DNA from: a virus
Virus record (IMG/VR): IMGVR_UViG_3300050821_002142
Location: 1-34,781 of that record
DNA: 34,781 nucleotides
Strand: one strand, 5' to 3'
Part shown: piece after piece, positions 6,843 to 31,609 of the stretch
Position numbering within the stretch: the stretch's first letter is position 1
Layout: the number at the start of each line of letters is the position of its first letter
The notes under the pieces: model-generated
Told to the model about the DNA's origin: nothing
The model's input: the letters and a program-made list of their open reading frames with translations, nothing else
Databases searched by the model: none
Position numbers and translations under genes: made by a program

Positions 6843-8864
6843 GTGAAAGTAACAGAGTTAGAAGCGTTAGTTAAGTTTGCAAGAACAGAACATCCTAACT
6901 ATCAATTCAAGAATATGTCAGACGAAGAGTTTGATAAGCTAGCAAAACAGAGTTGGGATAGACTTTCTCCGGACCATAAGAAGAAAGTTTCTGCGACTTG
7001 TCATGCTGCCAAAGTATTGATTGATGATCAACCGGAAACAGCAATTCTTGTAAGGCGTGCGCGATTTCTTGCACAAACTAATTTATTTTTTCTCTGTCAT
7101 CTTCTTGAGCGCTATAAAGACGCTTCGCTGAAGACGTATACATGGATCGATGGTTCGATCCATAATACACACGAAGAAATTTGTAATGAATTCTTTGTGC
7201 GTAAAGACCCGACTAAAGTTTCATTCAAATCTTTTGCTAAAGACTATATCGATAAGAAAGAACGATTGTTACTTGTCCCACGAGGCGGCTTTAAGTCTTC
7301 GATGGACATGGCAGATGTTATCCAGTACATAATCTGCTTCCCCGAGGTAACGATCATGATTTTGACTGGAGTTCTTGATCTAGCAAAAGACTTCGTAAAA
7401 GAGATTAAAGGACATTTTACTCTTGAAGACGGCGAAATGGAACAAGAGAATTTGTTCCAAACAAAGAAAGCAATTAAGCCGAAGCAAATGGCTGACGGTT
7501 CTTATAATCTTTTTCAAGTCTTGTTTCCCGAGCATTGCATTCCCGCAGAAGACGGTAAATCGTGCGAGTATCAAACTCCCGCCGTTTCAATGGTCGAGAA
7601 AGAATGTACAGTTTTCGCGGCGTCGATTGATCAGAACTTATCCGGCTGGCACGTTGGTGTCTTGAAGCTCGATGACGTTGTAACGAACGAGAATAGTCGA
7701 ACTGTCGAACGAATTAAGAACGTCAATCGCCAAGTCAGTATTCATAACGCCATGCTTCATCCGTATGGATTTTACGATAAGATTGGCACTTGGTACGATT
7801 CTGAAGATACTTACGGTCAGACTATAAGATATGTTGCGAAGTGCGAAAAAGATGGCGAAGACGTAAAGACGAAAGTTTATATTCGCGCCGCTTGGTGGCC
7901 GAACGAAGCCGCTCGCAAAGCAGGTAAAGTCGAAGAAGAGATGGTCGAGTCGGATTGGGACTTCTGGTTTAACGAAGAAGGTCAACTGACTTACAAATTT
8001 CTTCGCGGCAAGAAATTAGAAGATGCCGAAGGTTTTGCGATCAAATATTTAAATGATCCGACTCAGGCGCATCGAATTAAATTTCCTCGCGAACTTCTTA
8101 TACGTCGTACAATTCCTTCAAATATGCTTCCGCAACAAGGAATGATCGTAACCACAGTAGATACGGCGTATTCAACGAAGAGTTGGGCCGACTATACGGT
8201 CATTCTGACTTCGCTTATTTACGGCGGGCGTTTTTATATTATCGACATTAAACGTGGGCGATATAACGAATACGAACTTCCCGGACTAATCGCGGCAAAT
8301 GCTTTGCAGTGGAAGCCGAAACGAATTTGCATCGAAGATTCTGTCGGTGTGAAATGGCTCGGACGTGAAGTTTATCGCGAAATGGACCGATTGAAGATTC
8401 GTGTTCCGATTGAATTTGTTCCGCTCGGTCAAGGCAATAAATCGAACGCTAAGAATATGAAAGCGAAACCTGTTCTTAGACTCTTAGGCGATGAACGATT
8501 ATTATTCGCGAATCAATGCGTCGGACTTGAAGAACTTTATAACGAACTTGAGAAATTTGACACAGCCGCTTCGACTCACGACGACATAGTTTCTGCATTA
8601 TCGATTCTTGTAGATCAGTTTTCGAGTTATGCAGAAATGGAAGGAAAGATGTCGTCTGTTGCTCCAGACTTTTGTACAGATATAAAAATGAAGCAACAGT
8701 ACGATCATATTTACGGCGCGGGTGTATTCGAAAAGATGGTAGCGCAAAAGAATTTTGAATCGTCGTTAGATCATTCGGATTTATCTGGGGGCGAAGCGAT
8801 GAAAGCCGCGCAGCAAGAAGCGGCGCAAGATTACGATCCGTTACAAGAAGCAGGATTGTGGTAA
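6843..8864 (+). CDS. terL: Terminase large subunit
   Basis: The packaging motor ATPase and nuclease, 673 residues. The ATPase has a Walker A-like LLLVPRGGFKSS near residues 142-153 and a Walker B-like HVGVLKLDDVV near 270-280. The RNase H-like nuclease shows its first acidic residue in TTVDTAYS near 438, a second in CIEDSVG near 497, and a third region in THDDIVSALS near 577-586. This order (P-loop, Walker B, three acidic clusters) fits TerL proteins. The N-terminal about 100 residues are extra, and the C-terminus ends in an Ala/Gln/Glu-rich tail. Start is GTG after GGGGGAGAA. The portal gene follows 19 nt later. No small terminase was recognised. Confidence 0.93.
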   Translation: MKVTELEALVKFARTEHPNYQFKNMSDEEFDKLAKQSWDRLSPDHKKKVSATCHAAKVLIDDQPETAILVRRARFLAQTNLFFLCHLLERYKDASLKTYTWIDGSIHNTHEEICNEFFVRKDPTKVSFKSFAKDYIDKKERLLLVPRGGFKSSMDMADVIQYIICFPEVTIMILTGVLDLAKDFVKEIKGHFTLEDGEMEQENLFQTKKAIKPKQMADGSYNLFQVLFPEHCIPAEDGKSCEYQTPAVSMVEKECTVFAASIDQNLSGWHVGVLKLDDVVTNENSRTVERIKNVNRQVSIHNAMLHPYGFYDKIGTWYDSEDTYGQTIRYVAKCEKDGEDVKTKVYIRAAWWPNEAARKAGKVEEEMVESDWDFWFNEEGQLTYKFLRGKKLEDAEGFAIKYLNDPTQAHRIKFPRELLIRRTIPSNMLPQQGMIVTTVDTAYSTKSWADYTVILTSLIYGGRFYIIDIKRGRYNEYELPGLIAANALQWKPKRICIEDSVGVKWLGREVYREMDRLKIRVPIEFVPLGQGNKSNAKNMKAKPVLRLLGDERLLFANQCVGLEELYNELEKFDTAASTHDDIVSALSILVDQFSSYAEMEGKMSSVAPDFCTDIKMKQQYDHIYGAGVFEKMVAQKNFESSLDHSDLSGGEAMKAAQQEAAQDYDPLQEAGLW

Positions 8865-8883: not shown

Positions 8884-11013
8884 GTGGCAGACGAACAAAT
8901 TGATGGAATGGCAATCGACTCTACTGGATTTGTAAGTGACGGAAATCCAAACGCGCCGTTAGTTGCAGCAGACTTTACACAAACTGGCGACATAAAAACA
9001 GTAAGCGGCGATTTAAGTTTAGTAAACGGGTGCGCACAAGCAGCGCGAGATTATCTGACAAATAATCAGTGGAATCTTCTTCATCGTGACGCCGATCTTT
9101 TGTTTCAATCGCCGCGACCTTTAAGCGTATATGAAAATACATACGTAATGGAGCCGAACGTTCAACGGTTTACCGTCGCGAAAATTGTAAACGCGATTAT
9201 TCCTCAATTATATAAAGGTCTTTTTTACGACGATCCGCCGATGCTTATGCGCCCGCGACCGGGAACGCCGCAAGCAATCGTTGATGCGAAACAAGCTCTC
9301 TTTTCTTACATTCTTGATGAATGTGACTTCAAACAACAGACGAAGTGGGGCATGGAAACAATGGCTACTTTCGGAACTGGTATTTGGAAGTGGGGCATTG
9401 ATTGGAAAGATATAACGACTTGGAAAAGAACTGCTTCGAGCCTGAATATTGAAACAGGATTAGATCAATCGAAACAAGTCATCCCAATTATCACAGACGA
9501 AGCGCCGAAAGTAACGCCGACAACTAAGACAATGCGACTGCCGTTCTTCGAACACAGACCATTAGATAAAGTCCTTGTTGATCCGCATCTTGATGTCAGT
9601 GATATTCGTAAGGCCGATTGGGTTGTAGATGTTCATTATATGGACTTTTACCAACTCGAAGAAATTCGCAAGGCAATCGAAGATTCTTCAGATAAGAAAG
9701 CGACCGAAGGATGGTCAATCCCGTCTAATCTTCGCGATACGTGGATCAAGACTACAAGTACAGTCACGAATCTTCAATCTGAACAAAACGTTTACGCTAC
9801 AGGTGCAGTTCATCATTCGAAAGATATGCCGATTCAGGCCGGACCTGATCCGTTGCGTAAAAAGTTAGAAGTTCTCGAATATTGGGATAAGAAACGCAAG
9901 ATCATTGTCATTAACGGCGAAAAAGTACTTTTTACAGGTACAAACGAATTCGATCAATTGCCGTTTCTTTCGTGTAATTGGTGGAGTCGGCCAAAAGCAT
10001 TTTTAGGAATGGGTTTAGGCTTAGTAATCGGCCAAAATCAACGTGTCGATCAAGGCGCGATTAATGCAATTCTAAAAATTCTTAGCTTCGGAGTTAATCC
10101 GATTTATCTTCAGAAACGCGAAGCAAATACCGCGACACAAATGATCCGAACCGGACTCGGTAAGATCATGAAAGTTGACGGAGATGCCGATAAAGCATTT
10201 CACTTACTTGAGCAGCCAAGAGTTCCACCAGATGTTTGGTCTGCATTAAAAGAATCACAAGATAGTTCAGAATCTGCTTCGGGGGCCGATCAACAACTCG
10301 TACAAGGGTCAACTGCTGGTCCTCGGTCTGGCATGGGTCGAACGTCAGGTGGCGCGGCGATTCAGGCATCGGCGTCAGCTACTCGTCTAGACGGCCCGCT
10401 AGACAATTTTATCGAACAAGTATTCAAGCCGTTTCTGTCGATTCTTGATATGCTCGTTTTCCGGTTTATGCACGATGAATGGATTTTGCATATTCTTGGC
10501 GAATTACTTGGCAAAACTTTGACTCAATCGTTTCCGATGCAAGAATATTGGGATTCGAATATTCAGTTTGAAATTCTTGCAGGCGCATCGATGTCGGCCC
10601 GAAGAACGATGGCGCAGTCGATGGTTATGCTTACGCAAATTTTGGAGAATCCGCAGTTGCTAGAAATGTTAGCAGTAGATGGTAAGAAAATTAAAGTCGA
10701 GCCAATCATTTCGATGTGGATGGAAGCTTCAGAATGGAAAAATGGCAATGATATTGTTGTTGATATGACGGAAGAAGAAAAAGCTGAGCGCAAGGCGAAT
10801 TCTAAAGCCGCGATGCAACAAATGCAAGTTCAAGCGAAACAACAAGATAGTCAAACGAAATTCCAACAAAAAGCGCAGTTGGAAGACGAATCGTCTAATA
10901 ACAGAATCAAGCGCGATTTAGTAATCGCTGCGGCCAAGGCTAGCGGATTGTCAGAGACGGTTTCGGGCGAACCAAGTTTAGGCGGACTTGAGGGGCAATT
11001 GCCGAACGTATAA
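8884..11013 (+). CDS. Portal protein
   Basis: A 709-residue protein directly after the terminase, with the features of podovirus-type portals: an N-terminal region with RFTVAKIVNAIIPQLYKGLF, a middle domain with HRPLDKVLVDPHLDVSDIR and VLEYWDKKRKIIVINGEKVL (the typical beta wing), FLGMGLGLVIGQNQRVDQGA in the long helix region, and a Gln/Lys-rich coiled C-terminal tail (AAMQQMQVQAKQQDSQTKFQ). It forms the dodecameric DNA channel at one vertex. The GTG start at 8884 follows AGGAAGGACGACCA. A hairpin lies just after the gene. Confidence 0.9.
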   Translation: MADEQIDGMAIDSTGFVSDGNPNAPLVAADFTQTGDIKTVSGDLSLVNGCAQAARDYLTNNQWNLLHRDADLLFQSPRPLSVYENTYVMEPNVQRFTVAKIVNAIIPQLYKGLFYDDPPMLMRPRPGTPQAIVDAKQALFSYILDECDFKQQTKWGMETMATFGTGIWKWGIDWKDITTWKRTASSLNIETGLDQSKQVIPIITDEAPKVTPTTKTMRLPFFEHRPLDKVLVDPHLDVSDIRKADWVVDVHYMDFYQLEEIRKAIEDSSDKKATEGWSIPSNLRDTWIKTTSTVTNLQSEQNVYATGAVHHSKDMPIQAGPDPLRKKLEVLEYWDKKRKIIVINGEKVLFTGTNEFDQLPFLSCNWWSRPKAFLGMGLGLVIGQNQRVDQGAINAILKILSFGVNPIYLQKREANTATQMIRTGLGKIMKVDGDADKAFHLLEQPRVPPDVWSALKESQDSSESASGADQQLVQGSTAGPRSGMGRTSGGAAIQASASATRLDGPLDNFIEQVFKPFLSILDMLVFRFMHDEWILHILGELLGKTLTQSFPMQEYWDSNIQFEILAGASMSARRTMAQSMVMLTQILENPQLLEMLAVDGKKIKVEPIISMWMEASEWKNGNDIVVDMTEEEKAERKANSKAAMQQMQVQAKQQDSQTKFQQKAQLEDESSNNRIKRDLVIAAAKASGLSETVSGEPSLGGLEGQLPNV

Positions 11014-13680: not shown

Positions 13681-16120
13681 ATGTCCTTCTCGCCTAGCGG
13701 GAACCAATTATCTAACCTGCCTCAGAGCACCGTGAAATTTTATGACAAGAAATTTCGCGAGAACCTCAAGGCTCAAACCCCGTTCGTTGCTTGCGCAGAG
13801 CGTTTGAATCTGCCTACCAATAGCGGTAACCAATACGAGATTATGTAACATGAATGTCTCGTAAGTTTAAGTCGAGTACATTGATTGGTTCATGTATGTA
13901 CCGTTGGCGGCTAACACCAACCAAACGACTGAAGGAACTGTTGGTTCCTCACTGTCGGTTAGCGTGCTGACAACGACCGCGACTATCGGAGAATTAATTG
14001 CTAGTTCTCCGTATAAACCTAATCTGATTGACTCGGACGCCTGAAATGGTTACGAGGCGGAACTTTATACAGTGTATAAAGACCGTGAACGACTAAGCGA
14101 TTGGGCACATGAAAGTGTGATGCAATAGTCTGAACTCATATGGAATAAAACTATGAGAGACGGGCAGAAATGACCCGCCCTATATTAGCTGCCGGACAGA
14201 AGTTGTTACCCGGAGTAATATTAGTAACAAATTTGATGCCGATTACGCCAACTTCTCTTCGCTTTCGCTTGCAACAGCTATCGATAATACGGTAGAAAAT
14301 GTCGCAAAAGAGATGAGTTATCGCCTTGGCGAAAGCCTGTCCGCTCTCGTTCGTGCAACTTGCGACGGCGCGAACAGCATCGATTCTAGCGTGCTGACTC
14401 AGTTGGCCGCGACTTCGACTTCGAGCTTTACCGCCCTGTCGTTGTCCCAGATTCGAAATAGCGTCCAGTCACTCGCTGGCCGCAGTGTCCGTCCGTTCGA
14501 TGAAGCTTCAAAGAGCTTTATCGGAGTCATCCATTTTTAATTAGGGTGGATGTAAAATTTAGCTATATCGGGGAACCTCTTATACAGTGTATAAGACAAT
14601 CCCGAGGAAAGACACTTATGAGTTTTAACTGGTCGTATTTATCTGGCCTAATCGATGGTGAAGGAACTATAACAATCAACAGAACCGGAAAAGGTTCTTA
14701 CGAATGCAGAGCAAAGATCGGAAATACTGATCTCCGGCTAATGAAATGGCTGATCTCTAAGTTCGGCGGCGTTTATTACACCGAAACGAATAGAAACCCA
14801 CTGAAACACAGAACACTGTATCAGTGGAGAATAAAAGGGCGTAAAAACACCGAAGATTTGTTATTGGGTATCCTGCCACATCTTGTTTTGAAAGCAGAAC
14901 AGGCCAAAATCGCGCTAACTTATCTCAGAGCAGAAACAACTGAGGAACGAGAAAAGTGCTTTTTAGCAATTCAGCCTTTGAACAAGAGAGGTGTATCCGT
15001 AACGACTAATACGCTAGAGTCTTCGCAAGAAGATATGATAGAGTCTGACCTCATGAGTGATCATGAGAGCGTACCTGATGTGAATCAGGGTTCTGATATT
15101 TGCAAAATACCACCGGAAGGTTGGTGGTGTTCGCGTGAAAGTGGTCATGATGGCCCTTGCGCAGCAAGACAGATTTAACCTAAACACAAGTACCTTTCGC
15201 CCTTGGCGACGTGTTGGCTGACAATAGCAACGATTCGCCTATCGATATCCTGAAGCACACACCGGTGGGTCAGGCAAAGATGGACGAACTCGTTTCGGTT
15301 GATCTGACTGAAGTAATCGAACTGCCGAGTTCTGGCGTTCAGTTCTTCCAGACCAACCTCGTCACTCAGTCTAACAACTATAAGTCAGTTGCCGGACTAG
15401 TCGGTCTTCGGACGTACATTTTTGGCCGCGATGGAGTATTTGCCATCAATTTGGGAGCCAAAGGTGATACAGGCTATGGTGACGGCGAATGGCGTAAACG
15501 TTAAGATATTGCGCCAATAAAATCCCTCCTGATTGACTTGGAAGCTGAAACGCTAACAAGGCGGAAGTCAAGTTTTTCTGTTATAAAACTTGACACCGTG
15601 AGAGACTAAGCGGAGAGACGCAGAAATGCGATGCGATAGTCCGAACTTATACGAATAAAAGTATAAGAGGTAGGCAGAAATGTCTTACCCTGTGAAAACA
15701 GTAACAAGATTGAATATCGAATGTAATATCATGCAGAACGTTAATTAGGTGTGACGTTCTTTAGATGTGAAACGGATTGGCACCGACCGTTGCAGACCCC
15801 GAGGGTTTGATTCCGGGATGGACTTCTTATCGAGTCCATTTCACCACATCGCTCGGCCCTAAACTGTATTGGGGCGAGTAATAAACCGACTCTGATTGAC
15901 TTGGAAGCTGAAATGGCTAACAGGGCGCAAGCCGCAAGGCAGCGTGAGAGACTAAGTGAGACGGCGCTCAAGAAATTGAGCGATGCGATAGTCCGAACTG
16001 CACAGAATAGGGAATGTGCAGAGGTTAGCAGAAATGACTAACCCCGCCGTAAGGCGAGTAACAATTTTGGATACTACGATTCGGCAGAGACAAATTGATG
16101 CTGCGTCGGCCATAAGCTAA
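13681..16120 (+). CDS. Major capsid protein, N4 gp56-like, in seven exon pieces
   Basis: Read straight through, the gene stops after 55 codons, but one 343-344 residue protein is recovered by joining 13681-13841, 13888-13994, 14236-14535, 15191-15495, 15713-15742, 15780-15860 and 16070-16120. It starts MSFSPSGNQLSNLPQSTVKF and has NSGNQ near residue 46, FMYVPLAANTNQTTEGTVG, GEYADYANFS, GVIH.PFALGDV, RTYIFGRDGVFAI, GDGEWRNIE and finally GWTSYRVHFTTS and IDAASAIS. These agree with what I remember of N4 gp56-type capsids, where the same blocks follow each other without gaps. Four interruptions are group I introns and two are unexplained short insertions. Exon 3/4 is ambiguous: VIHLPF if the intron ends in G at 15190, VIHPF if it is 14535-15192. 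The gene follows the scaffold and has a TAAATA start context. Confidence 0.85.
13842..13887 (+). other. 46-nt insertion in the capsid gene with group I-like borders
   Basis: This segment introduces TAA in frame at 13846-13848 and shifts the frame. Removing 13842-13887 restores NSGNQYE-M-FMYVPLAANT. The upstream exon UACGAGAU (13834-13841) pairs with GUCUCGUA (13856-13863) over 8 bp, with the last exon U opposite G, as in a group I P1. The segment ends in G. Its 3' end CGAGTACATTGATTG resembles the end of intron D, CGAGTAACAATTTTG. No catalytic core fits in 46 nt. Additional pairing CATGAA/TTCATG (13849-13854 with 13889-13894) and CTCG/CGAG would bring the two borders together. Confidence 0.7.
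13995..14235 (+). ncRNA. Group I intron A (no ORF, 241 nt)
   Basis: Upstream exon GGAGAAU (13988-13994) pairs with GUUCUCC (14004-14010), giving a 7-bp P1 with U.G at the splice site. The conserved CTGATTGACT segment, ACGACTAAGCG and ATAGTCTGAACT (14125-14136) are shared with introns C and D and match group I core strands (P3/P7/P8). A hairpin CTTTATAC-AGT-GTATAAAG lies at 14063-14081 and a P9-like GGGC/GCCC stem near the 3' part. The intron ends AACAAATTTG. Splicing joins GAA-T to AT-GCC, giving GEYADYANFS. Confidence 0.85.
14536..15190 (+). ncRNA. Group I intron B with LAGLIDADG ORF (about 655 nt)
   Basis: Exon CAUCCAU (14528-14534) pairs with GUGGAUG (14546-14552), 7 bp with U.G. The next two U also face G, so the splice site may be at 14534 or 14535. 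Near the 5' end is TCTTATAC-AGT-GTATAAGA (14578-14596), the same hairpin and loop as in intron A. Core strands AACGACTAATACG (from 15001) and ATAGAGTCTGACCTCATG (from about 15038) lie inside the 3' part of the endonuclease ORF. A 3' end at G15190 fits the group I rule and gives VIHLPF; ending at 15192 gives VIHPF but no terminal G. Confidence 0.8.
14618..15178 (+). CDS. Intron-encoded LAGLIDADG homing endonuclease
   Basis: A 186-residue protein with a single LAGLIDADG motif, LSGLIDGEGTI near residues 8-18 (catalytic acid in the GEG), followed by the usual alternating strands and helices (LRLMKWLISKFGG, LYQWRIKGRKNTEDLL, LPHLVLKAEQAKIALTYL). One motif means it should work as a homodimer, cutting the uninterrupted capsid gene and spreading the intron. 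ATG 14618 is chosen because CGAGGAAAG lies 7-10 nt upstream; an in-frame ATG at 14546 sits inside the P1 stem. From about residue 128 the reading frame runs through the ribozyme core, and the last 26 residues contain a Cys-rich GWWCSRESGHDGPC motif that is not part of the nuclease fold. Confidence 0.88.
   Translation: MSFNWSYLSGLIDGEGTITINRTGKGSYECRAKIGNTDLRLMKWLISKFGGVYYTETNRNPLKHRTLYQWRIKGRKNTEDLLLGILPHLVLKAEQAKIALTYLRAETTEEREKCFLAIQPLNKRGVSVTTNTLESSQEDMIESDLMSDHESVPDVNQGSDICKIPPEGWWCSRESGHDGPCAARQI
15496..15712 (+). ncRNA. Group I intron C (no ORF, 217 nt)
   Basis: Exon UGGCGU (15490-15495) pairs with GCGCCA (15511-15516), 6 bp with U.G at the site. Core elements CTGATTGACTTGGAAGCTGAAA, GACTAAG (15604-15610) and ATAGTCCGAACT (from 15636) are nearly identical to intron D. 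A 10-bp GTCAAGTTTT/AAAACTTGAC stem replaces the short hairpin of intron A. P9 is GGTAGG..CTTACC. The end AACAAGATTG at 15703-15712 joins TGG-CGT to AAT-ATC, giving GEWRNIEC. Confidence 0.85.
15743..15779 (+). other. 37-nt insertion in the capsid gene with group I-like borders
   Basis: Lies 30 coding bases after intron C. It places TAG in frame at 15746 and changes frame. Removing it gives ECNIMQNV-APTVADPEG, which has the spacing I remember for this capsid region. Upstream exon GAACGUU (15736-15742) pairs with GACGUUC (15753-15759): 7 bp with U.G exactly at the border and a 10-nt loop. The last base is G. The 3' part TGTGAAACGGATTG resembles a shortened end of intron C (TGTGAAAACAG then AAGATTG). 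There is no room for a ribozyme core. Confidence 0.7.
15861..16069 (+). ncRNA. Group I intron D (no ORF, 209 nt)
   Basis: Exon CUCGGCCCU (15852-15860) pairs with GGGGCGAG (15871-15878) with one bulged G and U.G at the splice site. It shares CTGATTGACTTGGAAGCTGAAA, AGAGACTAAG and GATGCGATAGTCCGAACT with intron C, and has a P9 stem GGTTAG/CTAACC. It ends AACAATTTTG at 16069. Splicing joins GGC-CCT to GAT-ACT, giving SLGPDTTIRQRQIDAASAIS and the stop at 16118-16120. Confidence 0.85.
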
Positions 16121-16254: not shown

Positions 16255-16779
16255 ATGAGAAAACTTGATTTAGTAGGACAGAAATTTGGAAGACTAACAG
16301 TTTTAGAAGTTTGCGGACGAAATCATAATGTAAGAGTTTGGAAATGTCAATGCGATTGTGGTAAACAGCATGAAGTTGAGCAAAACCATTTATCGTCAGG
16401 CCGAACAACTAGCTGCGGTTGTTACCACAAAGAAAAAGTTACTACGCACGGTTTAAGCAATAGCCCGGAAGAACGAGCCTACGATCATGCTCGACAACGA
16501 TGTAAACCAAATCACAATAAGCATGCACATTATTTTGATCGCGGTATTAGGTTTGAATTTACGTCTTTTGAGCAGTTTTATGCTGAAGTTGGGCCTAAGC
16601 CAACGCCTAAACACTCATTAGATCGTATTGATAACGATGGAAATTACGCTCCCGGTAACATTCGATGGGCAACTAAGAGTGAGCAAGAGCGAAATAAGAG
16701 ATGTAACAATTGTGATGCATTGAAAGCCCGCATCAAAGAATTAGAAGTACAAATCGCGTCATTGACGCAGAAGGAATAA
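16255..16779 (+). CDS. Free-standing HNH endonuclease with AP2-like DNA-binding part
   Basis: A 174-residue endonuclease of the phage HNH family. Residues 1-60 (VGQKFGRLTVLEVCGRNHN, then C.C.CG.......L.SG.TTSCGC) form a Cys-rich DNA-binding module. The nuclease part has SLDRIDNDGNYAPGNIRWAT near residues 122-141 and SEQERNKR, the typical variant in which D.ID..G.Y.P.N.RW replaces a canonical HNH. A short coiled tail (CDALKARIKELEVQIASLTQ) follows. Strong ribosome site GGAGAG. Preceded by its own promoter and hairpin; inserted directly behind the intron-bearing capsid gene, 4 nt before the next gene. It may promote spread of itself or act with core-less introns as a collaborating endonuclease. 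Confidence 0.88.
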   Translation: MRKLDLVGQKFGRLTVLEVCGRNHNVRVWKCQCDCGKQHEVEQNHLSSGRTTSCGCYHKEKVTTHGLSNSPEERAYDHARQRCKPNHNKHAHYFDRGIRFEFTSFEQFYAEVGPKPTPKHSLDRIDNDGNYAPGNIRWATKSEQERNKRCNNCDALKARIKELEVQIASLTQKE

Positions 16780-16783
16780 CAAC

Positions 16784-18007
16784 ATGCCTATCCCCGCACA
16801 AACAACGGGTCTTGGAACCGCCGTCGCAGTCACGTTGGCGGGAACTGGAGTCACACAGGAAAAAACACCTGTCAGTGGAACTCAAGGAATTTCGCACTAT
16901 AATGTAACTCTGTCTTTGTCCGGGACCGGATTTCCGAGTACTGTCGCGGTCAGTGCGTCAACGATTGACGTTGCCGGAAACGTCGTTAGTAATGGTGGCG
17001 CTTCAGGATCGACGCAATTGGGCGCAGCCGCCGCAGCTTATGCTATTCTTGCCGCTGCTGGAATTACTAATACTGGCGCGACTGTCATTTCTGGCGGAAA
17101 TATCGGTTCGTATCCGACTGCAACTGAAACCGGATTTACCGGGGCAAATTTTGTTCCTCCGGCGACGACTGATAACGCCGATGCACAAGCAGGACTCGCC
17201 GCCGCTTTGGTAACATATAACGCGCTATCGGCTTTGACTTTTACGTCTTTGTCCGCGTCTTCGGCTAATTTAAGCACTCTTGGTAACGGAAGCACAGCTT
17301 CGACTTATACCGCAGGTAATTATTCTGCTGGCACAAGCATGGACATTCCGACGAGCATTACATTAGATGCTCAAGGCAACCCCGGCGCGGTATTTATATT
17401 TAAAGCCGGATCGACACTGACTCTCGAATCTAACGCGTCTGTTGTTCTTGTCAACGGCGCTCAAGCCGCGAACGTTTATTGGCTGGTCGGTAGTTCATTT
17501 ACTTCGATCTTTGGAACTGTGTCCGTCATGAACGGAAATATTCTTGCCAATACAAGTATTACTCTTGGCGGTGGCGTCCTGAATGGCCGAGCATTGGCCG
17601 GAATCGTGACTTCATCTGGCGCAGTTACAATTGCGACTGCCGAAGCAATTACAGTTCCCGGATTTTCACAAAGCACAGCTTCAGGAATGAATGCAGTTAG
17701 TTATAATGCATGGCCGCGTTTGGTTGGCGGCGTTACACAGACTCGCGATGGTGTGACTCGTAATGCGCAAGATGTCACTGTTTCTTATCCGGCTCCGACT
17801 TCAGGTCCGGGCGGCGTTGCTGATGTGTCAGATGTCAATAATCCATTTCTTGTGACCGCGTATCGTGTCGGTCAAGCGTGGGTGGAATTTTTCGCGCCTA
17901 CTTTTGGAAATTCTGAGCCATTAGCGACAGATATTGAGTCGAATTTGACCGAAGGTTTTCCGACCGATAAAATCCAAGCACAGCTTTTAGTTAACGTCGT
18001 GAAGTAG
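16784..18007 (+). CDS. Ig-like capsid surface protein with inserted ice-binding (DUF3494) domain
   Basis: A 407-residue protein in three parts. Residues 1-72 form an Ig-like segment (GISHYNVTLSLSGTGFPSTV) like that of the next gene. Residues about 75-292 are an ice-binding-protein-type domain of the DUF3494 family: AAYAILAAAGITNTGATVIS, GGNIGSYP, GSTASTYTAGNY, GAVFIFKAGSTLTL, ANVYWLVGSS, ITLGGGVLNGRALAGI. Residues 295-407 continue the Ig-like protein (RNAQDVTVSYPAP and EPLATDIESN). The protein likely decorates the head or another virion surface. Family members bind ice; here a role in binding ice or carbohydrate is inference. ATG 4 nt after the HNH stop, ribosome site AAGGAATAAC. Confidence 0.85.
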   Translation: MPIPAQTTGLGTAVAVTLAGTGVTQEKTPVSGTQGISHYNVTLSLSGTGFPSTVAVSASTIDVAGNVVSNGGASGSTQLGAAAAAYAILAAAGITNTGATVISGGNIGSYPTATETGFTGANFVPPATTDNADAQAGLAAALVTYNALSALTFTSLSASSANLSTLGNGSTASTYTAGNYSAGTSMDIPTSITLDAQGNPGAVFIFKAGSTLTLESNASVVLVNGAQAANVYWLVGSSFTSIFGTVSVMNGNILANTSITLGGGVLNGRALAGIVTSSGAVTIATAEAITVPGFSQSTASGMNAVSYNAWPRLVGGVTQTRDGVTRNAQDVTVSYPAPTSGPGGVADVSDVNNPFLVTAYRVGQAWVEFFAPTFGNSEPLATDIESNLTEGFPTDKIQAQLLVNVVK

Positions 18008-18026: not shown

Positions 18027-18578
18027 ATGTCTAATCCAGTTCCTCCCCACAACCCTACTGACGGACTTTTATCCGCGTGTTACGTGCAACTTTCTGGCAC
18101 AGGCGTTACTATTCCGCCTAAAGAACCGCCTGTTTCCGCGAATCACCCAAGTGCTGGACATTACGAAGTTACTTTGAGCGCGTCTGGTACTGGTTTTCCG
18201 TCTTCTGTCGTCATAACACCATCACTTGTTGATGTGTCTAATACGGCGTATGCTTCGACTGCTGCATCTTGGGTTTATCGTTCTTATAACGATCCTCAAG
18301 TAATCGAAGCAAGTCTTCCAACAGGACCGGGAAATCCGACTAATCTTGCGCCGAAGCCGACGCAGACTGCGAAACTTGCGTCTGTTAGCGCATCTGGAAC
18401 ATCAACAGTAACCGTCACTGCGCTGTCTCCGGGCAAAGCAATTGTATCCGCAATTTACCCCACCTTCGATAACGCAGAAGGAAATGTTACAGTTGGCAAT
18501 CTTGGCGGACCCTTGGCCGGAACTACAGTGCCGAAAGATTATATTTTCGCCCTTATTGATGTAAAGATTTTCGCGTAG
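18027..18578 (+). CDS. Ig-like virion surface protein
   Basis: A 183-residue protein with SAGHYEVTLSASGTGFPSSV near residues 44-63, matching the N-terminal part of the preceding gene (HYNVTLSLSGTGFPSTV), and ending with VTVTALSPGKAIVSAIYPTF, a pattern of bacterial Ig-like (BIG2-type) domains. It lacks the ice-binding insertion, so it shows what the uninterrupted form looks like. Probably a decoration protein. Ribosome site is AAAGAGAAATC. No signal peptide. Confidence 0.7.
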   Translation: MSNPVPPHNPTDGLLSACYVQLSGTGVTIPPKEPPVSANHPSAGHYEVTLSASGTGFPSSVVITPSLVDVSNTAYASTAASWVYRSYNDPQVIEASLPTGPGNPTNLAPKPTQTAKLASVSASGTSTVTVTALSPGKAIVSAIYPTFDNAEGNVTVGNLGGPLAGTTVPKDYIFALIDVKIFA

Positions 18579-19543: not shown

Positions 19544-19939
19544 ATGAATACTAACGAATATATGCGGGATTACATGCGAAAACAATATGCTGAAAAGCCC
19601 GCAATTCGCGAAGCTCAGATTGCCCGCTCTTTGGCCAGATATTATAATTCAACTCGTACGAGTGTTCAACAAGAGAATTTAGATCGTAAAATTGATGTTT
19701 TGACTCATTATGGTCTTAATAGTATGTTGCAATGTTGCGGCGAAGACTGCAAAATTATTGATCATGATATGTTAACTCTTGATCATATTAACAATGATGG
19801 CGCTGTGCATCGTAAAACAATCACGACCGGAATATACCGATGGATACAAAGTCACGACTATCCTGCCGGATTTCAAACACTTTGTTGGAATCATCAAATG
19901 AAGAAAGAACTCGCCCGCAGGCGAATTGAAAATATGTGA
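19544..19939 (+). CDS. HNH endonuclease-like protein
   Basis: A 131-residue protein with the compact phage HNH pattern: CCGEDCKII near residues 65-73, then LTLDHINNDGAVHRKTI near 78-94 (D-H of the metal finger), and FQTLCWNHQMKKEL near 112-125 (Asn and His). The N-terminus (YMRDYMRKQYAEKP) is a basic helix seen in related phage nucleases. It nicks or cuts DNA. The ribosome site (AAGAAATT) is weak and no own promoter is visible, unlike the two other HNH-type genes. Followed by a 186-nt gap. Probably a mobile free-standing gene. Confidence 0.8.
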   Translation: MNTNEYMRDYMRKQYAEKPAIREAQIARSLARYYNSTRTSVQQENLDRKIDVLTHYGLNSMLQCCGEDCKIIDHDMLTLDHINNDGAVHRKTITTGIYRWIQSHDYPAGFQTLCWNHQMKKELARRRIENM

Positions 19940-23334: not shown

Positions 23335-23373
23335 TTAAATGGTTATAACCTCGCAGATTAATTACCTGTGAGC

Positions 23374-23395
23374 GGGGGCTGCTATCTCAGCCCCC
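23374..23395 (+). promoter_or_regulatory. GC-rich leader hairpin before the endonuclease gene
   Basis: GGGGGCTG (23374-23381) pairs with CAGCCCCC (23388-23395) with a 6-nt loop, about 20 nt before the ribosome site TAGGAGA. Followed by CATTCTTAG, not a real T-tract. Same order (promoter, hairpin, ribosome site) as before the 16255 gene. Confidence 0.6.
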
Positions 23396-23418
23396 CATTC
23401 TTAGATAGGAGAATATTA

Positions 23419-23853
23419 ATGCAATTTAATTTGACAAAGACGCATTGTCCGCAAGGCCACGAATATACCGAAGAAAATGTGTACATTAATCCGACTACCG
23501 GATGGCGGCAATGTATTACATGTAATCGCGGCTGGAACAAACAACACGCCAAAGAAGATAAAACAGGATGTCACTATCGCGGGCGAATAGTTCATCAGAT
23601 GCGCCAACGGTACAACATACAAAGTTTGGAAGAACGCGATGCTTTGCTCGAATCTCAAGGTTCGGCTTGTGGTATTTGTGGCCGAACCGGATTGAAGTGG
23701 GGCAAAGGATTTAACGACGTTTGGCACATTGATCATGAACATGACAAACCCGGTACGCATCGGGGCATTTTATGCGCTTACTGCAATACTGCGCTCGGTC
23801 GTCTTGAGCCGCACATGGACAAAGTATTGGCTTATCTCGCTAAATACAAATAA
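23419..23853 (+). CDS. Endonuclease VII-like HNH endonuclease
   Basis: A 144-residue nuclease. The N-terminal part has CPQGHEYTEENVYINP and CITCNRG, a zinc-ribbon with two Cys pairs. The nuclease part has ACGICGRTG near residues 76-84, WHIDHEHDKPGTHRGILC near 97-114 and AYCNTALGRLEPHMDKVLAY: the treble-clef H..DH.H...G..RG.LC..CN..LG signature of T4 endonuclease VII-type enzymes. These cut branched or recombining DNA and are often mobile in phages. Start ATG 23419 after TAGGAGA, with its own promoter and leader hairpin. An in-frame ATG at 23368 would start inside the hairpin and is rejected. Confidence 0.88.
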   Translation: MQFNLTKTHCPQGHEYTEENVYINPTTGWRQCITCNRGWNKQHAKEDKTGCHYRGRIVHQMRQRYNIQSLEERDALLESQGSACGICGRTGLKWGKGFNDVWHIDHEHDKPGTHRGILCAYCNTALGRLEPHMDKVLAYLAKYK

Positions 23854-24010: not shown

Positions 24011-24979
24011 ATGGCAATTTCGACAGTTGCGATTGAAAACACGATGGATTTTTGCAAGAGACTTAGCTTTAATCGTAATTTTGGAATTGGCAATTCTCTT
24101 GAACCTGCACTCACAGCCGCAAATCTGACTGCTCAGATCATTCTTTCTCCTCCGTTCGATTGGTGGTGGAATTCGCAAGAGATTAGTTTTACATGTTCGA
24201 CAGTTCCTCCGGTCGCGAATATTACAAACGTCGCGATTACAAGTAAGATTGTAACTTTGTTGATGACGAATACGTTTGTTCAAAATGATCAAGTTCTTAT
24301 CGCCGGATTAACTGGCGCAGCATTTCTTAATGGCGCGGTTTTGACCGTTTTGACATCATCCGGGTCACAGATTACAGCTTTTTTTAATCATGCCGATTAT
24401 GTGTCAACTGCCGATACAGGAACTGCAACAAAGGGCACGATACAAGATTATACGATCAATATTCCTCAGTTTTCTCATATTGAACACGCGTCTGTATATG
24501 ATATATTTACGAAAAGTACTTCGACAGGCGCGACTAGCAGTAAATGGTTTGAGTTGACTGTTGAAGACAATCTTTCTCTCGATTCTACTCTTGGTCGGCC
24601 TCAGTTTATCAATCCTCAGTTCGAAGATACAAACGGAAATGTGACATTTCGTGTTATGCCCGCGCCAAGTAATAACTATCCAATTTCAATCCACTGCCAA
24701 CTCGCGCCGCCGTTGTTTACGAGTTTGAATCAAACATGGTCGCCACTTCCAGATTTTATGCAGCATATTTATACTTGGGGCTTCATGTCGTTAATGTGGT
24801 TCTTTGCTGATGACCCGCGAGCGGCTTATGCAGGACAAAAGTTTACTGCCGGATTGCTTGGACGCGCCGAAGGACTGACGGAAGAAGACAGAAATATTTT
24901 TCTTAATAATTGGAATATGCTGACAGGACAACAGCAGTCAAAGATGCAACAAGGAGCGCAAGCTCGTGCCGCGCAATAG
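24011..24979 (+). CDS. Virion adaptor/tail-type protein with inserted beta module
   Basis: A 322-residue protein whose start (STVAIENTMDFCKRLSFNRN, PPFDWWWNSQEISF) recalls the protein at 22179. Residues about 62-150 are an added beta module: ITNVAITSKIVTLLMTN, VLIAGLTGAAFLNGAVLTVL, YVSTADTGTA. Versions of this module recur in the protein at 26702. The second half (WSPLPDFMQHIYTWGFMSLM, FADDPRAAYAGQKFTAGLLG) resembles adaptor or tail-tube proteins with a helical bundle end. Starts after AGAAAGAGAAC. Position before the fibre-like genes fits a neck/tail role. Confidence 0.65.
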   Translation: MAISTVAIENTMDFCKRLSFNRNFGIGNSLEPALTAANLTAQIILSPPFDWWWNSQEISFTCSTVPPVANITNVAITSKIVTLLMTNTFVQNDQVLIAGLTGAAFLNGAVLTVLTSSGSQITAFFNHADYVSTADTGTATKGTIQDYTINIPQFSHIEHASVYDIFTKSTSTGATSSKWFELTVEDNLSLDSTLGRPQFINPQFEDTNGNVTFRVMPAPSNNYPISIHCQLAPPLFTSLNQTWSPLPDFMQHIYTWGFMSLMWFFADDPRAAYAGQKFTAGLLGRAEGLTEEDRNIFLNNWNMLTGQQQSKMQQGAQARAAQ

Positions 24980-26701: not shown

Positions 26702-29700
26702 ATGTCGAACGCCCTTCAAGCCGCTGGCGCTCAGCCGGATAAACAAACCAGATTCACAAATTTATATACGGGCCGTTTCTTCTCAGGAATCTGGACAAAT
26801 CGTTCTCCGTTACGCGACGCCGCTTCGACTCGAATAGAAGAGAAGTTTTACGGGCCGCGTGGCGATGCAATGATCGCGGGATCGAACGTCGAAATTACGA
26901 ATAGGCTGACTTTAGGTCGTAGACCCGGAAATCCAGTTTATGACAACGTTAATACGTTTACAAACGTATTGAGTTTTGATGATTTTCGTATCAGTAAGGG
27001 CTTGTCTGACATTTTCGGAACTGTGACCGAACAAGTCGATACAATGATCGACACAAGCGCGGCTTTATTTGCTGAGAACAGTTCTTTCGCTCTTCAAGGC
27101 GGCGTTAATCCGACGACGGTATTTACGAAATCTCCCGGCGCGGGACAGAGTTATGGAATTCAAGTAGGAAATGAATGGTATTTTGGCAACGGCGCAGACA
27201 ATAAGAAGTGGCTACAATCTCTTTTTGTTCGATCAAGCGCGAGTAACAACGCGACGTTGAATCTTAACTCATATCCGTTCATGGATACGTTCTTAATTAG
27301 TAATCCAACGACGAATCCGCAGATTCAGCAATTAATTGGTGCCGCTGTTCAATCCGGTGCGTCAAGTTCAGTCAACAATATTAACGTCACGAACGTCGTT
27401 CTGACGAATGAAGTGTTGACACTTACAACTTCAGCAGCCCCGTTTACGACACAACCTATTGGCACGCAATTTATGCTATGGGGATTTACAAATCCTGCTA
27501 CGACATTTTTGAATGGCTCGACTATCACTTTGACTGTTGCTTGGTCAGGAACGACAATTACTGCGACTTGGACCGGAACGCACGCGAACATGTCGCAGGC
27601 TGATACGGCGGTCATTCAAATTGAAAACGGCGGTACGAATTCTGTTACAAATACACTTGTACTCGGGCCTACGGTTCCGACATGGGGAACAGTTGCGCCA
27701 AGTGCCGCCAACGATTTCATGGGCAGCGTAACGATTGACGGACAAGCAATTTGGGTCAATCGTGGAATTACTGTCGAAAATTGGGGATTAGCAGCACCAA
27801 CTGAAGATTTGATTTCAGGTCCGGGCGGAATTTCGTTGACTGGCGCGGCTTCCGGATTTTCTCCAAATACGTTTTTTGCGCCCGCGAGTGTTTTTATTGA
27901 CCCGAACGGGAATTTATGGGAAGTCACGACCGGAGGTAAATCTGGCGCAACTCAACCCGCTTGGCCCGCTTCGCCTACGTTTAGTGTAAAGCATGATATT
28001 TTTGCAGTCTCAGTCGCAGCTAACGTCGCGACTATATATTGTACGACTTTGCCTAGTCCGGGTCAAAGTGTGCAACTTTTCGGATTACAACAAGCGAACG
28101 GAAATGGAGGAGCGCCAAATCTTAACGGCGTGACTTTGACCGTTGCGACGACCGGAGCAAATTTCTTTACTGCGCCTTTTACGTTCTCAGGAACTTATCC
28201 TGCGACTGGCGATGGCGCGGATCAAGGATATGCTATAAAATATGGCACGACTCAAGCAGACGGAAGCGTAGTCTGGACAAGTCTGCAAAGCGCCGCATCG
28301 ATGGTTTGGGCCGCGCATACGCATTATCATCAAGATGATTTTTTAGTCGCCCCTACAGGGTCGAGTACGTCATTATTTCGGTTAAGCAAGAATACACAAC
28401 CGTTTATTCAGTCTGACGGGGCGCTATTAAGCACGCTTTATCCAACATATAACTCCAGTCCGATAACCGGATCGTTTAACGCGATTGCAAATCCGATAAC
28501 TATTAATTCATGGGCCGACAATTCTAATCCCGCCCGAGGGTTTAACGGCGCATTTAGTCAGTCGTATTTATCGGTTCCGACATCCGGATCAGCCGCTGTT
28601 TCCACGCCTGTTCCGGGGTCTTTATACGCAGTAACGAATTCGACAGCAGGCGGCGGTCCTGAACAAAGCGGGCCTAATGTCTACTTCTTTGCCGTCAACG
28701 GCGCGGGCGAAATAGGTGCGTCAACAGACAGCGGGCAACGTGAGAATTGGGAAGCTTCATTTATTTGTAAAATTTATATTCCCGCCCCCGGTACTTATAC
28801 GTTTTCTCTTTTACATGATGATGGCGCTTTCTTTTCATTCGATAATATTACTACTTCGGCGTTTTTGACTATAGGTAATCAGATAAACGTTCCGCCTACT
28901 TTCTCAGGTTCAGGCGGCAAAACCGCCATTCAAGGTTATACCGGAGTTGTTGGAAATAATAATTCTGGCATTACTACAGATTCAGCGACTTGGAGATTTC
29001 CGACAGCAGGCGATTATACTCTTGAAATCAATTGGAAAGCTTGGCAAAACGCAGAAGAGATGATTTTTACTTGCCAGAGTTTTAATCTTGCAAGCAATCC
29101 CGACGAATCGGGAACAAATCAACCTGCTTGGCCCGCTTTTACGACTACTGGAGCGACCGCGAGTACGACGACTGGAATTACGTTTGGTACAGGCGACGTT
29201 ATCAAAGAAGCAGGCGGTCAGTATACGTGGAGCAATCTAGGTCCGACGAGCGCATATAATGTCTGGTTTGCAAATACGACTTATACCGTGTCAGGAACGC
29301 CGATTGTTGATACGAATGGAAATGAACAGCTTCCAATTCAACCCGGCGTAACTGGATCGACTGCGCCTGTATTTAACGGGACGCTGAACGGGATTACTAC
29401 GATATCCGGATCAACGTTACAATTTATCAACGCCGGAAGTGTGCCGATTCAGCCGAACACTCCGGGAAAGATTACCGCTACGAGCGCACAAGGTTGGATT
29501 TATGGGATTGCACTTGTCAATACGTTAGATAATACTGTTTCGAATATCGGACCTATTGGTCCGCCGAATAGCGCGGGCGGCGTAGGAACAGGCCCACTGA
29601 TAAGCGGGCAAGTTACGTTCTCTCCGGGAGCCGGATTGCCAACTGATCTGACTCAAATTGACACTCAAGCTGATTACGTAGCTATTTTTAGAACGACGGA

Positions 29701-31609
29701 CGGCTTTTCGACGTTGTTACTTATACCGAGCAATGGAAATACCGACTATACTGTTCCGTTGACTCAATATTTACAAAGTGGCTATGTCGATACGACGCCC
29801 GATACAGGTTTAGATACGTTGATTCAAGCTGCCGCAGCAGGAGAAAATACTCCTCCGCTACCCGGCGCGGTTAATTTGACGTATCATCTTAACCGTATTT
29901 GGTACTCAATCGGCAATACTGTATATTATACAACCGGGCCTTTAGCGCCAGTAGGAAATGGAATTAACGGAACTTCGCCATTAAACTTTGATGGTGTGAC
30001 TTCTTTGATTACTCGATTAGTTCCGTCTTCTATCGGAATGTTAGTATTCACCGTTTCGGATATTTATATAATCCCGAATCAGGGCGGAACGATTCTTCCG
30101 AGCCTTCCGTATGTTCCGGGTGTCGGATTAAGTAGCTATAACGCTCTTGATATATCAGGGCCATTAGTCGGCTTCTTTTCGACCGATCATCAATTTATTA
30201 ACTTTAATCCAAGCGCGGGCGTCAACATCGTTTCGATGCCAATTGGTGATCAGTTTCGCAAGAATACAGGACAACCGGGAACGGCTTGGAATCCAAAGAA
30301 TGTCTACGTCGCTTGGTATGTAAACGGTGAAGACATGGGTTGGTTTGTTGCGGACGGCGTTAACGGCTGGTATAGGCTGATTAATAATCCCGCGCCCGAT
30401 TTCGGGCAAAGCTGGAGTCCGTTTGCGACGATTGCAAACGGCGTGAAAGCGATCAAATCTGTTGAAACGTCTCCGGGAGTACATAATTTACTTCTAGGTC
30501 CGTCTTCTTCAGCGCCTATTAATCCTTCTCAGTTAGGGTCAGCAGCGAATTATGCGTTACTCGCGTATTCTGGAATTACAAATACTGGAACGAGTGTCAT
30601 AAGCGGCGGAAATATTGGTTCTTTTCCGACAACGACGATTACTGGATTTCCTCCGGGAATGTTTGTTTCTCCCGCAATGGTTGATAATACTGACGCATCT
30701 GCGGCGCAAACTGCCGCTCTTGCGGCGTATACTTATTACGCAGCATTGACGCCAACGAAATCCGGGCTGTCAAATCTTTCGACAGGCGGCAATGGAAGTA
30801 CAGCTTCGACTTATACAGCCGGAGTTTACGCCGGAGCGTCGAGTTTGTCGATGCCGACAGGAATTATTCTTGACGGTCAAGGCAATACAAATTCTATATT
30901 CGTATTTCAAGCCGGATCGACTGTAAATCTAGCTTCAGGACAATCGGTCAATCTTATTAACGGCGCACAAGCAAGCAACGTATTTTGGGTCGTCGGCACT
31001 TCGCTAACGACTGTTGCAACAAGTACAATGGTCGGAACAATTCTTGCTCAAGTATCTGTCACATTAGGCGGCGGCATATTGAACGGGCGTGCGATTGCCG
31101 GAATCGGCGGATCGAGCGGGGCAGTAACTATTTCTGCTGCAACAGCCGTGACAGCATCTGCCGGATTGCCGACAGGTTCTGGATTTATTCGATTTCGAAA
31201 TCTTGATGCTTCTTCCGATGGCGGAACAGGATTGACAAACGGCCTGACTTATCCTGCGTTTGGGGTATTTGGTTCATACGTACTCGCGCAACCCGGTCAA
31301 GTCGCGCAAGTTGCATTCGTTACGACTGACTCAGTCAATACGGGAAGTCCATTAATTCTAGGGCTTTTGATAGACGAAGCTTTGCCTTATTTTACCGGAA
31401 GTTTTGAAATGTTGAAGAACTGGACGACTGATCCTCCGGGATTACCCGCCAGTAAATCAATTCTCGGACAACGCTTTTATTTGTCTGAGCTTCCCAATTC
31501 CGCAGCGGCATTACGCCATATGCAAATCATGGTTCAATGGCCTAGCGAGGCTGCGCTGAATGAATTGCAGAGCTTTACAGTATTTGGCGATTATGTTCAG
31601 GAGCAGTAA
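26702..31609 (+). CDS. Giant multidomain virion protein with PA14-like and ice-binding domains
   Basis: A 1635-residue virion protein. Visible parts: an N-terminal structural region (TGRFFSGIWTNRSPLRDAAS); a beta module about 225-305 (ITNV-like NINVTNVVLTNEVLTL, FLNGSTITLTV) as in the 24011 protein; a second about 430-520 with GNLWEVTTGGKSG and DGSVVWTSLQS; a PA14-like domain about 675-795 (GTYTFSLLHDDGAFFSFD, WKAWQNAEEMIF); further beta segments; a body about 1090-1265 (YHLNRIWYSIGNTVYYTTGP, YIIPNQGGTILPSLP, GWFVADGVNGWYRLINNP) that looks like an intact propeller-like tail protein; a DUF3494 ice-binding domain about 1271-1487; and a C-terminal continuation (GFIRFRNLDASSDGGTG). Probably tail hub or fibre-like protein contacting polymers. 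Starts after TCAAGGAAAGTAA. Confidence 0.8.
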   Translation: MSNALQAAGAQPDKQTRFTNLYTGRFFSGIWTNRSPLRDAASTRIEEKFYGPRGDAMIAGSNVEITNRLTLGRRPGNPVYDNVNTFTNVLSFDDFRISKGLSDIFGTVTEQVDTMIDTSAALFAENSSFALQGGVNPTTVFTKSPGAGQSYGIQVGNEWYFGNGADNKKWLQSLFVRSSASNNATLNLNSYPFMDTFLISNPTTNPQIQQLIGAAVQSGASSSVNNINVTNVVLTNEVLTLTTSAAPFTTQPIGTQFMLWGFTNPATTFLNGSTITLTVAWSGTTITATWTGTHANMSQADTAVIQIENGGTNSVTNTLVLGPTVPTWGTVAPSAANDFMGSVTIDGQAIWVNRGITVENWGLAAPTEDLISGPGGISLTGAASGFSPNTFFAPASVFIDPNGNLWEVTTGGKSGATQPAWPASPTFSVKHDIFAVSVAANVATIYCTTLPSPGQSVQLFGLQQANGNGGAPNLNGVTLTVATTGANFFTAPFTFSGTYPATGDGADQGYAIKYGTTQADGSVVWTSLQSAASMVWAAHTHYHQDDFLVAPTGSSTSLFRLSKNTQPFIQSDGALLSTLYPTYNSSPITGSFNAIANPITINSWADNSNPARGFNGAFSQSYLSVPTSGSAAVSTPVPGSLYAVTNSTAGGGPEQSGPNVYFFAVNGAGEIGASTDSGQRENWEASFICKIYIPAPGTYTFSLLHDDGAFFSFDNITTSAFLTIGNQINVPPTFSGSGGKTAIQGYTGVVGNNNSGITTDSATWRFPTAGDYTLEINWKAWQNAEEMIFTCQSFNLASNPDESGTNQPAWPAFTTTGATASTTTGITFGTGDVIKEAGGQYTWSNLGPTSAYNVWFANTTYTVSGTPIVDTNGNEQLPIQPGVTGSTAPVFNGTLNGITTISGSTLQFINAGSVPIQPNTPGKITATSAQGWIYGIALVNTLDNTVSNIGPIGPPNSAGGVGTGPLISGQVTFSPGAGLPTDLTQIDTQADYVAIFRTTDGFSTLLLIPSNGNTDYTVPLTQYLQSGYVDTTPDTGLDTLIQAAAAGENTPPLPGAVNLTYHLNRIWYSIGNTVYYTTGPLAPVGNGINGTSPLNFDGVTSLITRLVPSSIGMLVFTVSDIYIIPNQGGTILPSLPYVPGVGLSSYNALDISGPLVGFFSTDHQFINFNPSAGVNIVSMPIGDQFRKNTGQPGTAWNPKNVYVAWYVNGEDMGWFVADGVNGWYRLINNPAPDFGQSWSPFATIANGVKAIKSVETSPGVHNLLLGPSSSAPINPSQLGSAANYALLAYSGITNTGTSVISGGNIGSFPTTTITGFPPGMFVSPAMVDNTDASAAQTAALAAYTYYAALTPTKSGLSNLSTGGNGSTASTYTAGVYAGASSLSMPTGIILDGQGNTNSIFVFQAGSTVNLASGQSVNLINGAQASNVFWVVGTSLTTVATSTMVGTILAQVSVTLGGGILNGRAIAGIGGSSGAVTISAATAVTASAGLPTGSGFIRFRNLDASSDGGTGLTNGLTYPAFGVFGSYVLAQPGQVAQVAFVTTDSVNTGSPLILGLLIDEALPYFTGSFEMLKNWTTDPPGLPASKSILGQRFYLSELPNSAAALRHMQIMVQWPSEAALNELQSFTVFGDYVQEQ

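Follow-up and report, generated by a model that had tools for sequence, protein, structure and literature searches.

A phage-restricted lineage of DUF3494 domains inserted in predicted virion proteins of tailed phages

Tailed phages contain promiscuous Ig-like modules, plug-in display modules that are common to unrelated virion proteins. The DUF3494 inserts described here would be plug-in display modules of a similar kind, but with a different fold. The DUF3494 family (PF11999) has been described as holding both substrate-binding and ice-binding proteins (PMC12337378), and two structurally solved members serve as references. In IBPv (PDB 5uyt), a two-domain protein of a Flavobacteriaceae bacterium, the ice-binding row has been mapped by mutagenesis, and enlarging the residues A364, A391, A410 and G429 lowers activity (PMC5673226). 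EfcIBP (PDB 6eio), from an Antarctic bacterial consortium, has serine, threonine and alanine at the site and is less effective than an alanine-rich relative; sequences originating from frozen sediment, rock and subsurface more often have serine and threonine at the site (PMC12337378). PF11999 genes have been reported earlier in Arctic viral contigs and interpreted as host-cryoprotection genes (PMC11515562); these share the Pfam family with the inserts described here, which are instead hopping inserts in predicted virion proteins.

The window analyzed is the whole 34,781-nucleotide stretch of IMG/VR record IMGVR_UViG_3300050821_002142, a 34.8 kb part of a tailed-phage genome that encodes a portal and an adaptor of the SU10 type (by Pfam) and a phrog_38 terminase (Table 1). 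The nearest cultured phage is Tunturi_3 (PP885686), a podovirus that infects the Arctic acidobacterium Tunturiibacter psychrotolerans (PMC11924767), and from this kinship the host of the window phage is probably a member of the Acidobacteriota. The two phages share the terminase, the structural gene order and the capsid protein (pieces 72–88% identical, mostly 74–82%), and Tunturi_3 has homologues of both window proteins with a DUF3494 insert, gp7 for the first (carrier 1) and gp19 for the second (carrier 2). Tunturi_3 differs in that no DUF3494 domain was found in it; gp19 represents an empty site and gp7 has another insert.

Table 1. Positions of the features discussed, in window coordinates
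Feature	Position	Strand	Basis
Terminase large subunit	6843..8864	+	phrog_38 E 1.6e-41; 49.5% identity to Tunturi_3 gp1
SU10-type portal protein	8884..11013	+	PF23899 E 2e-17
Carrier 1, 407 aa, homologue of Tunturi_3 gp7	16784..18007	+	ORF; flank comparisons
Carrier 1 N-terminal flank, residues 1-76	16784..17011	+	homologous to neighbours
Inserted DUF3494 domain 1, about residues 77-290	17012..17653	+	PF11999; AF2; Foldseek
Five x-hydrophobic-T steps, predicted ice-binding face of domain 1	17354..17629	+	alignment to IBPv
Carrier 1 C-terminal flank, residues 291-407	17654..18004	+	flank comparison
Uninterrupted paralogous neighbour 1	18027..18578	+	flank comparison
Uninterrupted neighbour 2, orthologue in L044	18588..19175	+	sequence comparison
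SU10-type adaptor, insert-free in the window	24011..24979	+	PF24175 E 9e-7
Carrier 2, 1635 aa, homologue of Tunturi_3 gp19	26702..31609	+	sequence comparison (E 2.7e-257)
Inserted DUF3494 domain 2 with linkers, residues 1266-1489	30497..31168	+	PF11999; empty sites

The major capsid gene (13681-16117, a homologue of Tunturi_3 gp6) is in six pieces separated by five intervening sequences. One of these holds a LAGLIDADG-type ORF (14546-15178), and three others (13994-14237, 15493-15743 and 15861-16069) are alike and have the appearance of small group I introns, but Rfam found no such intron in the capsid-gene intervening sequences. The interruption sites vary among relatives, and in L049 and L062 the gene is uninterrupted. 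Compared with L041, the gene also has a 46-nt out-of-frame insertion at about 13841-13887, which begins with an in-frame AUG-UAA and is immediately followed by an AUG in the frame that resumes. Possible readings are a translational-bypass element of the T4 gene 60 type, a very small intron or an error of assembly. Capsid genes of relatives have other short insertions, each some tens of bases long (L047:12144-12215, L093:13861-13918 and L068:15309-15354); those of L047 and L093 are at the same codon, have similar starts and contain promoter-like sequences (TTGACA...TAATAT or TAAAGT). By eye from the translations, there are HNH-like ORFs among the structural genes at 16255-16779, 19544-19939 and 23368-23853.

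Carrier 1 is directly downstream of the split capsid gene, with one of the HNH-like ORFs between. The original prediction, that a DUF3494 domain interrupts this protein, is borne out by a complete PF11999 match at residues 88-283 (17045-17632; E 2.4e-35, 122.5 bits against a cut-off of 28.7), and the proposed bounds of 17006-17659 (residues 75-292) frame the insert well; we place it at about 17012-17653, a length of ~214 residues. The neighbouring genes are uninterrupted, as had been claimed. A further claim, that both flanks resemble these neighbours, held strongly for the N-terminal flank, which matches the ORF at 18027 with a local score of 142 (shuffles 29.5 ± 5.5, none of 1000 as high), and in part for the C-terminal flank, which matches the same ORF weakly (score 48; 13 of 1000 shuffles as high) and its orthologue in L044 clearly (score 74; 0 of 1000). 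The flanks also match Tunturi_3 gp7 (N-terminal score 84, 0 of 1000 shuffles as high; C-terminal score 50, 7 of 1000), which at the corresponding place has a different, repeat-type insert. The description of the carrier as Ig-like was not confirmed: the window carrier has no Ig-type Pfam match, and in a model of the whole protein the flanks are of low confidence, mostly with pLDDT < 50.

The domain itself is modelled with a mean pLDDT of 96.2 by AlphaFold (AF2) from an alignment of 35 phage domains, and consists of a helix (56-71) and about 20 short strands arranged in a solenoid. This is the discontinuous beta-solenoid braced by a long alpha-helix that is typical of DUF3494, and thus the fold that had been proposed as a check of the assignment is present. 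All 31 Foldseek matches in the PDB with E < 0.001 are DUF3494 ice-binding proteins. The best is EfcIBP (E 2.6e-12, TM 0.80), in which the four columns verified by mutagenesis in IBPv are T, S, S and A as in domain 1; it is otherwise a free-standing cellular protein, 31% identical, with D rather than S in the first step. IBPv is the best PDB match by sequence (E 5.3e-27 with the whole carrier 1 ORF) and has the same fold, but it too is a cellular protein, and its row is A, A, A, G where the phage has T, S, S, A. We found no match to PF20597, the ice-binding-like adhesive domain, at E 0.01 in the window and 29 carriers.

A second DUF3494 copy, missed in the original prediction, is located in carrier 2, with a PF11999 match at residues 1287-1480 (30560-31141; E 2.4e-36, 125.8 bits, cut-off 28.7) and a domain extent of residues 1281-1484. 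The two window copies are ~60% identical to each other. From its sequence and gene order carrier 2 is probably a tail-nozzle-like protein; no PDB sequence homologue was matched. Natural empty sites identify domain 2 as an insertion, because the relatives of carrier 2 in L125 and L123 are continuous across the insertion point, and residues 1011 and 1012 of Tunturi_3 gp19 are contiguous where carrier 2 has residues 1281-1509 in addition. When domain 2 is compared with that of L121 at the DNA level it is mosaic, with codons about 1290-1330 (30567-30690, the head or cap part) being 55-77% identical and the flanking parts mostly ~90% or more, a pattern that points to recombination inside the domain.

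The phage domain alignment, used to scan viral contigs, identified 162 relatives, and the best 80 of these together with loci found earlier give 76 distinct carrier proteins. These fall into at least 23 flank clusters under a coverage rule, used because plain single-linkage joins unrelated proteins through Thr-rich repeats; the number of families varies with the clustering rule, and 23 is a low count since at least four kinds of carrier are still combined in the largest cluster. A role can be recognised for some carriers, namely homologues of gp19, the SU10-type adaptor (the L005 and L007 homologues of the window adaptor bear the domain) and a tail sheath protein (L265). In L010 there is a carrier 2 homologue with the domain at a site other than that in the window. 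At least 13 contigs, the window included, have two or more copies, and 13 of 14 portal relatives picked without a known copy have no domain; the module is common but patchy among these phages.

Three comparisons bear on how the domains came to be in so many proteins. First, a quick tree built from 171 domains groups 69 of those from phages in one set without any bacterial member (SH-aLRT 99), and among the best 80 of the 162 viral matches identity to domain 1 is at least 50%, whereas full-length bacterial matches reach at most ~46%. Second, the tree does not follow the carriers: a single clade of the nine carrier-1 domains is rejected (AU p 0.003), and the domains closest to domain 1, those of its own carrier aside, belong to an adaptor, a nozzle-like protein and a small protein. 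Third, the closely related carrier-1 proteins of L047 and L048 have flanks that are 91% and 78% identical and a domain that is only 56% identical, and therefore the module has been exchanged. These comparisons show a phage-restricted DUF3494 lineage that hops among genes for predicted virion proteins.

In the sheath protein of L265 (L265:1-4341), the DUF3494 domain occupies residues 290-489, and the match to tail sheath (phrog_2839, E 8.2e-24) covers residues 1112-1442; if assembled, this protein would give a tail bearing a dense DUF3494 array. We also note a repeat of about 70-80 residues (TYTGTITGGASN...GFTNAGNN...TTLVGTTTTQVNETHAATA) that is common to different virion-type proteins, often beside DUF3494, and is present in L286:7573-8511 (Tunturi_3 gp7), L007, L008, L013, L016 and L021. 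It is apparently a second promiscuous module.

The suggestion that DUF3494 is absent from described phage proteins agrees with our searches. PHROGs has no match for the domain, and tblastn with five different queries gave none in 50,697 phage records, although SEG filtering may hide weak ones; a terminase control in the same search of cultured phages found 110 records. In a viral structure library, three Hyperionvirus proteins are the only matches to the fold. Neither the DUF3494 fold nor the use of plug-in display modules by phages is new in itself, but we found no account, in the open-access literature searched, of a DUF3494 lineage that belongs to phages and hops among their virion proteins.

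The predicted ice-binding face of domain 1 is a row of five steps (SIT 191-193, TLT 211-213, SFT 238-240, SIT 258-260 and AVT 280-282). The first residues of the last four, T211, S238, S258 and A280, align with IBPv A364, A391, A410 and G429, and each is followed two residues later by a threonine. The verified-site residues are small, as in EfcIBP, in all 29 of the closest phage domains, with bulky residues at 0 of 116 positions compared with 19 of 352 in bacterial homologues (Fisher p 0.006, uncorrected for relatedness). The alanine trough of strongly active ice-binding proteins is absent from the phage domains. We considered the site residues as proof of ice binding and rejected this, because the same residues dominate the bacterial homologues, many of them from mesophilic Actinobacteria (a label judged from organism names in record titles), and so they are not diagnostic for ice. 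Ice binding is plausible, in that the sequence permits it without proving it.

Neither window domain is a free-standing gene with a signal peptide, both being embedded in longer proteins. For some relatives the carrier is structural by direct homology, the SU10 adaptor and the tail sheath being examples; the window carriers are structural only by homology to gp7 and gp19, which are annotated as structural in Tunturi_3, and with the gene order this predicts that they are virion proteins. The explanation we favour, and consider probable, is a phage-restricted, hopping DUF3494 virion module that most likely acts in adsorption. The beta-solenoid lineage would spread by recombination between virion-protein genes, as a plug-in in loops or at termini. 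With the domain in two predicted virion proteins, one encoded beside the major capsid gene and one tail-nozzle-like, many copies would therefore be displayed per particle, and a flat, regular Ser/Thr/Ala face would stick weakly to an extended surface, with avidity arising from the many copies. If the module does act in adsorption, ice is the single most likely ligand, a choice we make tentatively and just short of an even balance; other solids or host-surface glycans are also possible. Binding to ice would keep virions at the boundary between ice and water, or reduce the damage they suffer when soils freeze.

A serious contender, though short of probable, is a virion adhesin for a target other than ice, such as a host capsule or extracellular polysaccharide, cellulose, a mineral or another solid, with a family name that misleads. 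Substrate-binding proteins are included in the description of the family (PMC12337378), DUF3494 relatives with the same surface residues are abundant in mesophilic bacteria (Actinobacteria and soil and plant bacteria), insertion is as promiscuous as that of general adhesive modules, and Tunturi_3 gp7 has a different module in the matching loop. However, the phage domains have no carbohydrate-binding signature, they match PF11999 and not the adhesive PF20597 at E 0.01, and every solved structure near theirs is that of a protein described as ice-binding or antifreeze, or of a DUF3494 domain. The domain might instead be a passive spacer or a bulk decoration with no ligand, retained because it is a good folder that loops can accommodate. 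This would account for the very many carriers and positions, but it is unlikely given that the domains are under purifying selection (dN/dS about 0.08-0.20) and that the verified-site columns of 29 phage domains have no bulky residue. We regard as very improbable a secreted auxiliary protein that shields the infected host from freezing, as three Arctic viral contigs with PF11999 have been interpreted (PMC11515562), since the window domains are embedded in structural-type genes (of 407 and 1635 aa), an adaptor and a tail sheath are among the carriers, and by a simple heuristic only 4 of 76 phage carriers have signal-peptide-like starts compared with 43 of 86 bacterial homologues (three of the four being internal stretches of the nozzle-like protein), which argues against host cryoprotection at least for these phages.

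Returning to the adsorption module, ice as the natural ligand of the domain overall is a possibility that we hold with some doubt. Similarly doubtful is the fuller proposal that tailed phages of freezing soils own an ice-binding solenoid lineage on the capsid, tail base or sheath that gives the virion an affinity for ice, an ice-attached reservoir and protection during freezing and thawing; the absence of the domain from Tunturi_3, which is from Arctic tundra, and from most portal relatives searched counts against the favoured explanation. Viral PF11999 genes, hitherto regarded as host-cryoprotection genes, become the basis of a hypothesis about the particle itself. If ice binding is true, freezing would sort phages by affinity, which would affect how viruses survive and spread in seasonally frozen soils. 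Without ice binding, this would still be a phage-owned adhesion module that occurs across unrelated virion proteins and has been missed by phage annotation libraries.
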